Assembly (NCBI GenBank): GCA_024330185.1
Contig: JANDLV010000001.1
Coordinates: 62,001 to 126,000 of the forward strand
Direction of reading: 5' to 3'
DNA length: 64,000 bases
Origin: Candidatus Siliceabacter maunaloa
Lineage (GTDB): Bacteria; Actinomycetota; Thermoleophilia; Solirubrobacterales; Solirubrobacteraceae
Below, in pieces: positions 22,013 through 62,352 of this stretch. The position numbers were made by a program, and so were the translations under genes. The number at the start of each line of letters is the position of its first letter. Positions within the stretch are counted from its first letter, which is position 1. The notes under the pieces were generated by a model. That model was not told the DNA's origin, made no database searches, and worked only from the letters and a program-made list of their open reading frames with translations.

Positions 22013-23611
22013 CTACGTGTGCCCGACCGTGTCGGCGCGCCCCTGGGTGCGCATCTCCGACAGGATCCGCTCCAGCCGTGGCTCGGCGGTGGTGTCGACG
22101 TGGCGCATGGCGTCGGCCACGGCGGGGTGCTGGGCGGCGATCTGGCGGTGCATCTCCCGGGCCACGGCGCGATAGGCGGGGTGGCCCTCGCGCCCCGAGC
22201 GCAGCTCGATGAGCGCCATGGCCTCGCGGGCGTTGAGGTCGAGCACGTAGCGGATGCGATAGCCCAGGCACAGCGCGTAGGCGGCCTCGCGCGGGCGGCC
22301 CTCGTCGCGCAGGCGCTCGTAGGCGGCGCGCGAGACGTCCAGCGCGCGGCGGTAGTCGTCCCCGACCCCGGCCTCGTCGAGCTCCTCGGGGACGCCGGCG
22401 CCGAGGTCGGGCGTGAGGCCCTGCCACTGGACGGTGAGCATGCGGTGGCGCTGCAGGTCGCGGAACGCCCCGTAGTCGCTGACGATCTCGAAGCGGTAGC
22501 GCAGGGCCTCGAAGCCGCGGCCGGGGCGGTGGCGGCGGTTGGCTCGCTCGCCCACGAGGTCGGCCAGGGCCCGGGCGCGTTCGTCGGCGCCCAGCGTGCT
22601 GACGCGGATGCGCGCCTCCTCCTCGCTCACCGCCGCGGCCTCGAAGAGCAGCGCGGCCAGCAGCGCCTCCTCGTCGCCGTCGACGTGCAGCAGGCGGACC
22701 GACGGCCCGCTCGCGCCGTCGTCGCCGGGCGCGCGGTCCAGCCCCAGGCGCCCCGCCCAGCGCGCCGCCGCGTGCTCGCGGGCCTCGAGGTGCCCGACCC
22801 ACTCGCCGCCGCGGTCGGGACGCTCGACGCGCGCCACGAAGCTGGGCATCACCGCCTTGACGGCCTCGAGGATCAGCCCGCCGGCGTGGCGCGCCTCGGG
22901 CAGCGGGTGGGCCAGCAGGTGCAGGATGAGCTGCTCGTAGGTCTGGCCCGAGGCGTAGATGCCCATGTGCGACAGCGACGCGGCGGGCAGCACACCGCGC
23001 AGGAGGTCCAGCGCCTTGGCGCGCAGCGCGCGCTCGTACGCGGCGGGGGACCCGCCGGCGGCGGTCGGGAAGCGCTCCGCGGCCCACGCCTGCACGCGCG
23101 GCAGCGCGGCGGCGTAGGTAGAGAAGAGGTCGTCCATCGCCCGCTCGTACTGCGGCCCCAGCGACGGGTCGCGGAAGTACCGGAACCCCCCACCGGGCAT
23201 GGCCGCGTCGTAGGCGATGTAGCGGGTGGACTGCTCCAGGTAGGCGGCCAGGCGCGGGCGCTGCAGGATCTTGGTCAGCACGTTGCTGACCCACTCGCAG
23301 GCCACGTGCGCTCCGCCGAGCTGAGCCACCGAGTCGTCGCCGTAGCCCACGAAGATGCGCTCGTAGAGCGCCGCGGCACGCTCGCCCTCCCCGGCCTCGA
23401 AGCGCCCGGCGTGCTCGGGCAGCGAGTCCGCGAACTCGTCGAGGAACAGCCTGCGCAGCGTGCCCGGATAGCGCGAGTAGCGCGCGAACAGCGCCCCCTT
23501 GACCGTCTCGGGCAGGTTGGTGAGCGCGAACACCGGACCCTCGAGGTCGGTGAAGTGCGGCGCCAGGCGCGCGCGCTCGGCGTCGCTGAAGCTCTCGGCG
23601 GGGACGGTCAC
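22013..23611 (-). CDS. Tandem ThyX-like protein (FAD-dependent thymidylate synthase fold, duplicated)
   Basis: A 532-residue protein made of two ThyX-like halves. The N-terminal half has RPR at 118-120 followed by seven residues and Ser128 (AAYLEQSTRY), then an LRGVLPAASLSHMG helix like the ThyX R-x-x-LP motif. The C-terminal half has RHR at 388-390 followed by seven residues and Gly398, then LNAREAMALIELR, the ThyX dUMP/FAD-side helix. Normal ThyX is a ~220-250-residue tetramer with RHR-x7-S; here each half keeps a different part of that motif. A thymidylate synthase role is therefore uncertain. GTG 23611. Confidence 0.75.
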   Translation of the reverse strand: MTVPAESFSDAERARLAPHFTDLEGPVFALTNLPETVKGALFARYSRYPGTLRRLFLDEFADSLPEHAGRFEAGEGERAAALYERIFVGYGDDSVAQLGGAHVACEWVSNVLTKILQRPRLAAYLEQSTRYIAYDAAMPGGGFRYFRDPSLGPQYERAMDDLFSTYAAALPRVQAWAAERFPTAAGGSPAAYERALRAKALDLLRGVLPAASLSHMGIYASGQTYEQLILHLLAHPLPEARHAGGLILEAVKAVMPSFVARVERPDRGGEWVGHLEAREHAAARWAGRLGLDRAPGDDGASGPSVRLLHVDGDEEALLAALLFEAAAVSEEEARIRVSTLGADERARALADLVGERANRRHRPGRGFEALRYRFEIVSDYGAFRDLQRHRMLTVQWQGLTPDLGAGVPEELDEAGVGDDYRRALDVSRAAYERLRDEGRPREAAYALCLGYRIRYVLDLNAREAMALIELRSGREGHPAYRAVAREMHRQIAAQHPAVADAMRHVDTTAEPRLERILSEMRTQGRADTVGHT

Positions 23612-23695: not shown

Positions 23696-23995
23696 ATGGC
23701 TCAGCTGACGCTCCGTGTCGATGACGAGCTGGCCGATGACCTGCGCGACCTCGCTGTCCGCCAGGGTGAGAGCGTCAACGCCATGGCCACGAAGATGCTG
23801 CGTGCGCTGACCGATCCGGACGCGGCGGGCACCGATGTCGAGCGTTACCGCGAGCGCTTGCGGCGCGCGGGGCTCTTGGCGGAGCCGCCCGCCGAACCGG
23901 CTCCTCGGCCGGACCCCGAGCTCGTCGCGGCGGCGGGCCGCGAGGCGGCGAAGGGCAAGATGCTCTCGGACATCGTCCTTGAGGACAGGGACTGA
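23696..23995 (+). CDS. Ribbon-helix-helix antitoxin (pair 3)
   Basis: A 99-residue protein: AQLTLRVDDELADDLRDLA is an RHH/Arc-like strand and helix, then GESVNAMATKMLRALTD, then a Pro/Glu-rich linker and a C-terminal helix (GREAAKGKMLSDIVLEDRD) for toxin neutralisation. ATG 23696; an upstream in-frame codon adds residues without homology. The stop overlaps the apparent CTG start of the toxin. Confidence 0.78.
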   Translation: MAQLTLRVDDELADDLRDLAVRQGESVNAMATKMLRALTDPDAAGTDVERYRERLRRAGLLAEPPAEPAPRPDPELVAAAGREAAKGKMLSDIVLEDRD

Positions 23996-24420
23996 ACGGC
24001 TTCGCCGACTCGTCCGCGCTGGTCAAGCTCTACGTACCCGAGCCTGGGCACGAGATCGTTCGGGCTCTGGCTGACGTGACGATCAGCGCGCTCGCCCGGG
24101 TGGAGGTTCCGGCTGCCTTCTGGCGCAAACAGCGGGTCGGTGAGCTGCGCCCCGACCGCGCGGCCGGGCTGGCGGCGCAGTTCGCTGCGGACGTGAAGGG
24201 CACGGGTCTGGAGACCCCACGCTTCACGCTCGTCCTCGTCGATGACGCCACCCTCGCGGCGGCAGCGAGCCTCGTCGCCCGCCACCCGCTGCGCGCCTAC
24301 GAGGCCGTCCAGCTCGCCACGGCACTCGCGGTGATCCCGGCGGACCCGAGCATGCGGTTCGTCTCCTTCGACACCCAGCTCAACGCGGCCGCGGCCGCTG
24401 AGGGCCTGCAGCTCCTGTAG
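23992..24420 (+). CDS. VapC-type PIN-domain toxin (pair 3), probable CTG start
   Basis: A 142-residue PIN-domain protein if read from CTG 23992: NGFADSSALVKLYVPEPG is the canonical first strand with the catalytic Asp. Later acidic positions are in SALARVEVPAAF (Glu), LRAYEAVQLATA (Glu) and FVSFDTQLN (Asp). The only standard start in frame, GTG 24076, would remove the first strand and first catalytic Asp, and a TGA at 23980 closes the frame upstream. CTG 23992 overlaps the antitoxin stop (CTGA), the usual coupling geometry for these pairs. Confidence 0.82.
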   Translation: MNGFADSSALVKLYVPEPGHEIVRALADVTISALARVEVPAAFWRKQRVGELRPDRAAGLAAQFAADVKGTGLETPRFTLVLVDDATLAAAASLVARHPLRAYEAVQLATALAVIPADPSMRFVSFDTQLNAAAAAEGLQLL

Positions 24421-61527: not shown

Positions 61528-62352
61528 TCAGCGGCGCGGGAGTCCGTGCCCACCCGCCCTGGGCAGCACGCGGGTGATCTGCAGCTCGGCCGGCGCGGGG
61601 ACCGCGTAACGCACGGTAGTTCCGGTATCGTCGCCCTCGTCGTCCTGCTCGTCCTCGTCGAGCGCGAAGTCCTCGTCGTCGAAGTCGTCGTCGAAGTCCT
61701 CGGCTTCGAGCTCGGCCTCATCGTCCGGGCCGACGTCGTCAGCGAGCGCGGCGTCCTCGTTGGGCCCGGGGACGGGGACCACCGACCCGGGGCCTGTCGT
61801 CTCGCCCTGGCTCTCCAGGGTCGGGTCCGCGCTCACGGCCTCCGTGCGAACCTCGGGCATGGGAAAGCGCCGGTCGGCGTCCTTGGCCAGCGCGGCCAGC
61901 TCCCCGGCGATGCGCTCCATCTCGCCCAGCAGCCGCGTGCGCTCGCGCCACAGGTGCTCGATCTCGGCGTCCAGCTCGCGCGCCCGGGCCTCGGCTGCCT
62001 CCTTTATGGTCGTCGCCTCGCGCTCGGCGCGGGCCAGGCGGTCGTCGGCCTGGGTCCGGGAGCGGGCGGTGATGTCCTCGGCCACCTCGGTGGCGCGCTG
62101 GAGCACCGCGCTGGTCTCCTCGCCCACGCGGGCCAGCGCGTCGCGCACGGCGCCGTCGGGGCGGCGCAGGGTCACCGCCTCGTCGACGAAGCCGCTCACC
62201 CGGGCGACGTAGGCGTCCACCGCATGACGCTCGTAGCCCCACACGCCGCTGGGGAACTCGACCCTGCGCAGGCCGGCGCCCGTGGCCTGCAGGTCGTTGG
62301 AGGGGCCGGCAGGCTCCGGCACGGAGTGCGCGGCGAACGTTTGAGATGCCAT
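61528..62352 (-). CDS. DivIVA-domain coiled-coil protein with acidic C terminus
   Basis: A 274-residue protein. FPSGVWGYERHAVDAYVARV (~33-52) resembles the DivIVA/Wag31 N-terminal membrane-binding element; residues ~75-165 are a charged coiled coil (AEREATTIKEAAEARARELDAEIEHLWRER...); residues ~215-250 are almost all Asp/Glu. Likely a scaffold at the cell pole or septum, which is inference from the family. ATG 62352. Confidence 0.72.
   Translation of the reverse strand: MASQTFAAHSVPEPAGPSNDLQATGAGLRRVEFPSGVWGYERHAVDAYVARVSGFVDEAVTLRRPDGAVRDALARVGEETSAVLQRATEVAEDITARSRTQADDRLARAEREATTIKEAAEARARELDAEIEHLWRERTRLLGEMERIAGELAALAKDADRRFPMPEVRTEAVSADPTLESQGETTGPGSVVPVPGPNEDAALADDVGPDDEAELEAEDFDDDFDDEDFALDEDEQDDEGDDTGTTVRYAVPAPAELQITRVLPRAGGHGLPRR

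Follow-up and report, generated by a model that had tools for sequence, protein, structure and literature searches.

A double ThyX protein with a putative composite active site as the probable thymidylate synthase of Candidatus Siliceabacter maunaloa

The stretch of DNA analyzed here (64,000 nucleotides of contig JANDLV010000001.1 from Candidatus Siliceabacter maunaloa, positions 62,001 to 126,000 of the forward strand; hereafter, the window) holds a gene for a protein with two ThyX-like domains, neither of which carries a complete RHR-x7-S motif. Does such a protein still make thymidylate, or has it given up catalysis for another function? A preliminary description of the gene (22013..23611, minus strand) had left a choice between these possibilities, the former in the shape of a single composite site to which each fused half supplies a different part. 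We consider it very probable that this double ThyX is the cell’s thymidylate synthase, a fused pseudo-dimer with a composite site, for which we infer a pseudo-tetrameric assembly, an assignment of halves to chains, and catalysis.

Two fused ThyX domains

The coding sequence encodes 532 amino acids from a GTG start without an internal stop, and the whole protein matches the Pfam family Thy1 (PF02511) with an E value of 1.4e−31. Two Thy1 matches lie within it, with scores of 60.9 and 47.8 bits that both exceed the Pfam cutoff of 24.8. The N-terminal domain (N-half; residues ~20 to 262, 22826..23554, E = 1.2e−12) is the proposed donor of the lid and of the loop for deoxyuridine monophosphate (dUMP), while the C-terminal domain (C-half; residues ~300 to 510, 22082..22714, E = 1.1e−16) is the proposed donor of the RHR motif, of the counterpart of R174, and of the phosphate side of the flavin adenine dinucleotide (FAD) site; these and all features below lie on the minus strand unless marked otherwise. 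The protein is more than twice the normal length, as had been described, given that canonical ThyX of the same order has one Thy1 match of ~195 amino acids.

An AlphaFold2 model of the full chain, built with 70 sequences, has a mean predicted local distance difference test score (pLDDT) of 88.4 and a predicted template modeling score of 0.87. The order of strands and helices is equal in the two halves, and the top matches of the model among solved structures are ThyX. Residues 300 to 510 of the model match ThyX of Thermotoga maritima (Z = 15.7, root mean square deviation of 2.5, 188 residues) and of Mycobacterium tuberculosis (Z = 15.6). The N-half modeled alone (pLDDT of 78.9) matches M. tuberculosis ThyX with a Z of 10.7; its top 47 structure entries all have the ThyX fold, and the first unrelated entry has a Z of 6.0. 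Because each half matches Thy1 and has the ThyX fold, the halves can be regarded as homologous. Pfam, structure prediction, and relatives bear out the preliminary description of a ThyX-like protein made of two fused halves, and neither outcome that it named as refuting (no ThyX fold in either half, or nonhomologous halves) was observed. A direct hhalign comparison of N-half and C-half alignments gave no match (probability of 1.2), the halves being distant and the alignments shallow (effective number of sequences of 2 to 3). A phmmer search of PDB sequences with the protein found no ThyX, and the family profile had Helicobacter pylori ThyX as its sole match there (E = 0.003).

Division of the active-site residues between the halves

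The active site of canonical ThyX draws on three subunits (PMC6514825, section 3.1). Subunit A gives the RHR motif and R199 (R174 in the numbering of T. maritima ThyX, Tma, which we use for all counterparts), subunit B gives S71 and R190 (Tma T55 and R165), and subunit C gives S105, R107, Y108, and the backbone of residue 103 (Tma S88, R90, Y91, and E86). We refer to these groups as the A-, B-, and C-sets, and we counted the conservation of their equivalents over 70 bacterial double ThyX homologs.

The A-set lies in the C-half and is invariant. Its R388-H389-R390 (22442..22450) is an intact RHR motif, retained in 70 of the 70 homologs and in all phage doubles read, and R471 (22199..22201), the equivalent of Tma R174 and of its role in dUMP activation, is likewise present in 70 of 70. 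The C-set, on the other hand, shows no variation in the N-half, and the C-half has lost it. In the N-half R118-P119-R120...E126-Q-S128-T-R130-Y131 (23219..23260), the His is lost (the position is G or P, never His) and R or W stands in place of the first Arg, while the equivalents of E86, S88, R90, and Y91 do not vary. In the C-half W396-Q-G398-L-T400 (22412..22426), the E86, S88, and R90 positions are lost: Trp stands at 396, T400 varies, and G398, at the Ser position, is P, R, A, S, T, or another residue. R205 of the N-half (22997..22999; Tma R147) follows the same pattern, with a C-half counterpart, A444, that varies, and we would group it with the C-set by its presumed subunit role. In two Patulibacter-type genomes (G019 and G036; L039 and L040), loop inserts of variable length occur near residue 139, just past the YLEQSTRY strand of the N-half.

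On the B-side, the equivalents of E58, N163, and R165 are E368, N460, and R462 of the C-half, where the N-half has Q97, S/T221, and Q223. E368, placed by profile alignment to H. pylori ThyX, is the invariant end of R365-G-F-E368 (22508..22519), in which an invariant Arg replaces T55. In N460-A-R462 (22226..22234), the FAD-phosphate side, N is found in 66 of 70 and R in 70 of 70 homologs. The N-half counterpart of Tma G52-H53-x-T55-x-x-E58 is G91-D-D-S-V-A-Q97 (23321..23341), with invariant D92 and Q97 in place of H53 and E58. T55 is the exception within the B-side: the N-half has Ser at this position, and the C-half has Arg.

Over the whole chain, then, R78, H79, R80, R174, E58, N163, and R165 are represented in the C-half and E86, S88, R90, Y91, and R147 in the N-half, and no single domain has a complete RHR-x7-S. 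Because the residues of the three sets are so divided, one kind of site lacks only H53 and T55, and its counterpart is broken. The preliminary description gave the positions of R118-P119-R120-x7-S128 and R388-H389-R390-x7-G398 exactly as they stand in the open reading frame, and both of the losses that it named are right; the division, however, goes further than one His and one Ser. The aligned homologs show that the motif remnants are no chance feature and that both are fixed throughout a large family of actinobacterial proteins.

We propose that two chains of the double ThyX build the tetramer-like body of the usual ThyX and that, per pair of chains, two of the four sites would be live and two vestigial. 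In a live site, one C-half would give R388-H389-R390 for FAD and dUMP together with R471 for dUMP activation, the C-half of the partner chain would give the FAD-phosphate side (E368, N460, and R462), and an N-half would give the dUMP loop and lid (E126, S128, R130, and Y131, with R205). The vestigial sites would be without equivalents of His79, E58, R165, S88, R90, and Y91. Because a ThyX site draws residues from three subunits, the double ThyX still requires a second chain. The composite site of the preliminary description is supported, and fits better than an enzyme turned to another function, although a single chain would not complete it.

Thymidylate synthases in the relatives

The genome to which the window belongs (3.79 Mb, 95% complete) has no ThyA and no second Thy1 protein beside the double ThyX, and the same holds for its relatives. 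Among 61 near genomes, this one included, 43 carry a full-length double ThyX with 63 to 84% identity to the protein of the window, and none of these 43 has a ThyA or a third Thy1 match. The search for thyA or a canonical thyX elsewhere in the genome, which the preliminary description had recommended, thus found neither. All 18 genomes without the double have another synthase (ThyA, canonical ThyX, or atypical ThyX). The double and another synthase thus exclude each other in these genomes (Fisher test, P = 8e−16, 61 genomes, kinship ignored), and swaps between them occur within four genera (g8, g10, g12, and g39).

Cells that use ThyA as their synthase need dihydrofolate reductase (DHFR). With ThyX, which gives back tetrahydrofolate, this requirement is removed (PMC9931769). 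DHFR is absent from all 43 double-bearing genomes and, among the 61, is found only in the five that have a full-length ThyA. In these five (G003, G006, G012, G027, and G029), thyA adjoins folA; two of them also retain a canonical ThyX. In an Actinomycetota-wide sample, 87 of 296 genomes carry the double ThyX; only one of the 87 (G254) matches ThyA strongly, in two separate pieces, and two more have weak or partial matches. On the evidence of gene content, the double ThyX is most likely a working thymidylate synthase.

Several synthases of these genomes are unusual in their own right. In G254, a contig of 7 kb carries the two pieces of the ThyA match (L197, G254:C39:1968-3886) with ~1 kb between them, for which an intron, an intein, damage, or contamination are possible explanations. 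A canonical ThyX in a 688-amino-acid frame on the minus strand of another genome (L036, G056:C8:621000-625000) has an intein-like insert of ~360 amino acids directly before THELVRHR. Atypical ThyX proteins of roughly 300 to 350 amino acids (L035 in G030 and L037 in G057) have NTHRVFSRNSASSRAIP at the position of the RHR motif and replace the double in two genera that otherwise bear it. Furthermore, about 40 Actinomycetota genomes (families f13, f23, f26, f29, and others) show weak matches to the ThyA model (E values of 1e−8 to 1e−13, frames of ~220 to 300 amino acids), perhaps a short, divergent type of ThyA, and many of these genomes show no ThyX match.

Two forms, competing readings, and known systems

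The contig scan yielded at least 567 confirmed relatives, and those listed include Solirubrobacterales and Acidimicrobiia (Ilumatobacter and Microthrix); among them, the named relatives nearest to the present genome are Solirubrobacteraceae. Elements of Euzebya, Miltoncostaea, and Parabacteroides also carry doubles, which RefSeq names FAD-dependent thymidylate synthase, so that the gene is not an unannotated one. On the Euzebya plasmid, the gene is near a dCTP deaminase gene, and in phage Tunturi_5, it adjoins a dCMP deaminase gene. A 278-kb circular element of Parabacteroides distasonis (L193; Bacteroidota, recorded as a plasmid) has a double of the actinobacterial type with 38% identity.

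Doubles are also present in jumbo-phage contigs (L166 to L192), and this phage form is cataloged in PHROG 36506 and BFVD. In the jumbo-phage doubles that were read, the A- and C-sets are divided as in bacteria (RHR in the C-half, E.S.RY in the N-half), but it is the N-half that carries the B-set (His, Ser, and E/D, mostly also N and R), of which the C-half has a degraded version. Two further loci (L164 and L165) have the bacterial type of division. In a tree of the halves, all C-halves are joined (97 in the Shimodaira-Hasegawa-like approximate likelihood ratio test, SH-aLRT) and all N-halves are joined (SH-aLRT of 94), with canonical ThyX separate, in a quick tree with several long branches. 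Given this grouping, one old fusion is the simplest explanation. Bacterial and phage doubles also share DYG.FRDLQRHR and E.S.RY in equal order. The tree suggests that the fusion took place once, long ago, and was afterward resolved differently in the two groups.

Symmetry offers a way to picture these two outcomes. In a tetramer with D2 symmetry, the A-B and A-C subunit relations are different axes. Because of this symmetry, once RHR and Ser are split, only two of the three possible arrangements of two N-halves and two C-halves would be live, and the bacterial and phage partitions would correspond exactly to these two. Halves of the same type would be related by the A-B axis in the bacterial form and by the third axis in the phage form, from which it follows that the second chain would dock on the first differently in the two forms. 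We regard it as an evenly balanced question whether one pseudo-dimer divided a three-subunit site in two ways (RHR and the FAD-phosphate side together, or RHR alone against the rest), so that both live solutions exist in nature, a proposal drawn from symmetry.

Some observations weigh against the double ThyX as a thymidylate synthase with one live and one dead kind of site. The protein scores 51.2 bits against TIGR02170, the curated NCBI equivalog model of thyX, below the cutoff of 87.9, and in the bacterial form, H53 is lost from both halves (D92 and P363). The presumed dead site, moreover, retains invariant D92, S94, Q97, R120, and Q223. The R174 position of the N-half aligns ambiguously to R/H/K231 or L/M232, is mostly basic, and is not counted as lost. 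Together with this basic residue, the invariant ones mean that the presumed dead site may have another use. We find it unlikely, though worth keeping in view, that the protein is a thymidylate synthase whose halves are specialized and whose second kind of site serves folate, NADPH, or allosteric dUMP. Such a role could account for D92, S94, Q97, H102, R120, and Q223 of the N-half and W396 and Q397 of the C-half, all invariant and unexplained by the live site, but the free variation at R118 (R or W), G398, T400, and A444 speaks against a conserved ligand site of the ordinary type.

That the protein is a catalytically dead relative of ThyX with a structural or regulatory role seems very improbable to us. 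The low equivalog score would agree with it, as would the fact that neither half alone has all essential residues. The double-bearing genomes would then, however, have no thymidylate synthase at all, the residue classes of the live site are invariant or nearly so in the 70 sequences save for H53 and for T55, which is now Arg, and the two halves show complementary, nonrandom losses. We give equally little credence to an enzyme that methylates C5 of another substrate, such as uridine monophosphate (UMP) or a modified base of the phage type. ThyX folds with other substrates exist, the structures of one of them, the UMP methylase PolB, are among the matches of the model, and doubles are found in phages; yet the gene is chromosomal, usually in one copy per genome, and a one-for-one replacement of ThyA or ThyX, no alternative route to thymidylate was seen, and the absence of DHFR agrees with the ThyX reaction. 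Finally, bacterial and phage doubles could stem from two independent fusions, given that the B-set residues lie in opposite halves, but this is rather improbable in view of the tree and of the two motifs common to both in the same order.

If this reading of the double ThyX is right, hundreds of soil and water bacteria would depend on an essential enzyme that consists of natural fused halves with one obligately shared active site. It would account for thymidylate synthesis in lineages with neither a complete ThyX motif nor ThyA, would caution against annotation that seeks one complete motif, and would offer a direct test of how the site of a homo-oligomer can become divided once its gene has been fused, for which nature would supply two answers.

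In the window, no nucleotide or folate connection was seen among the genes around the double ThyX, which encode acetyl-CoA synthetase, MobA-like, methyltransferase, GCS2, iron-containing redox enzyme, and CDGSH proteins and Nuo subunits, so that the surroundings of the gene do not help to explain it. Two small open reading frames at 23735-24417 (plus strand) are arranged like an antitoxin-toxin pair and have no Pfam match.

Among known systems, canonical ThyX (PF02511; T. maritima TM0449 and M. tuberculosis) has the fold of both halves and, in sum and save for H53 and T55, the same site residues, and its carriers, like those of the double, are without ThyA and DHFR. It differs in being one domain, with four equal subunits, four sites, and the full motif in each chain, whereas the double consists of two partial domains. 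A domain-duplicated, uncharacterized ThyX of Chloroflexi was remarked on by Valas and Bourne in 2009 (PMC3224940); it is probably of the same family as the present double. The passages of that account that we found give no residues, composite-site idea, or partition (PMC3224940). This remark was the only one found in the literature on double or tandem ThyX, with no account of a composite site or of two partitions. The phage double ThyX (PHROG 36506; A0A7D4 of Microcystis phage Ma-LMM01; the jumbo-phage contigs) likewise has two ThyX domains per chain. Its equivalents of H53, T55, and E58 and of N163 and R165 are in the N-half in the contigs, in contrast to the bacterial form, which has this side in the C-half and has lost H53. 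The monomeric dUTPase of herpesviruses is an example of gene fusion in a homo-oligomeric enzyme, after which the duplicate sites were lost. The double ThyX resembles it in fusion and site loss, with an unrelated fold and reaction, and differs from it in having two alternative partitions of one site.
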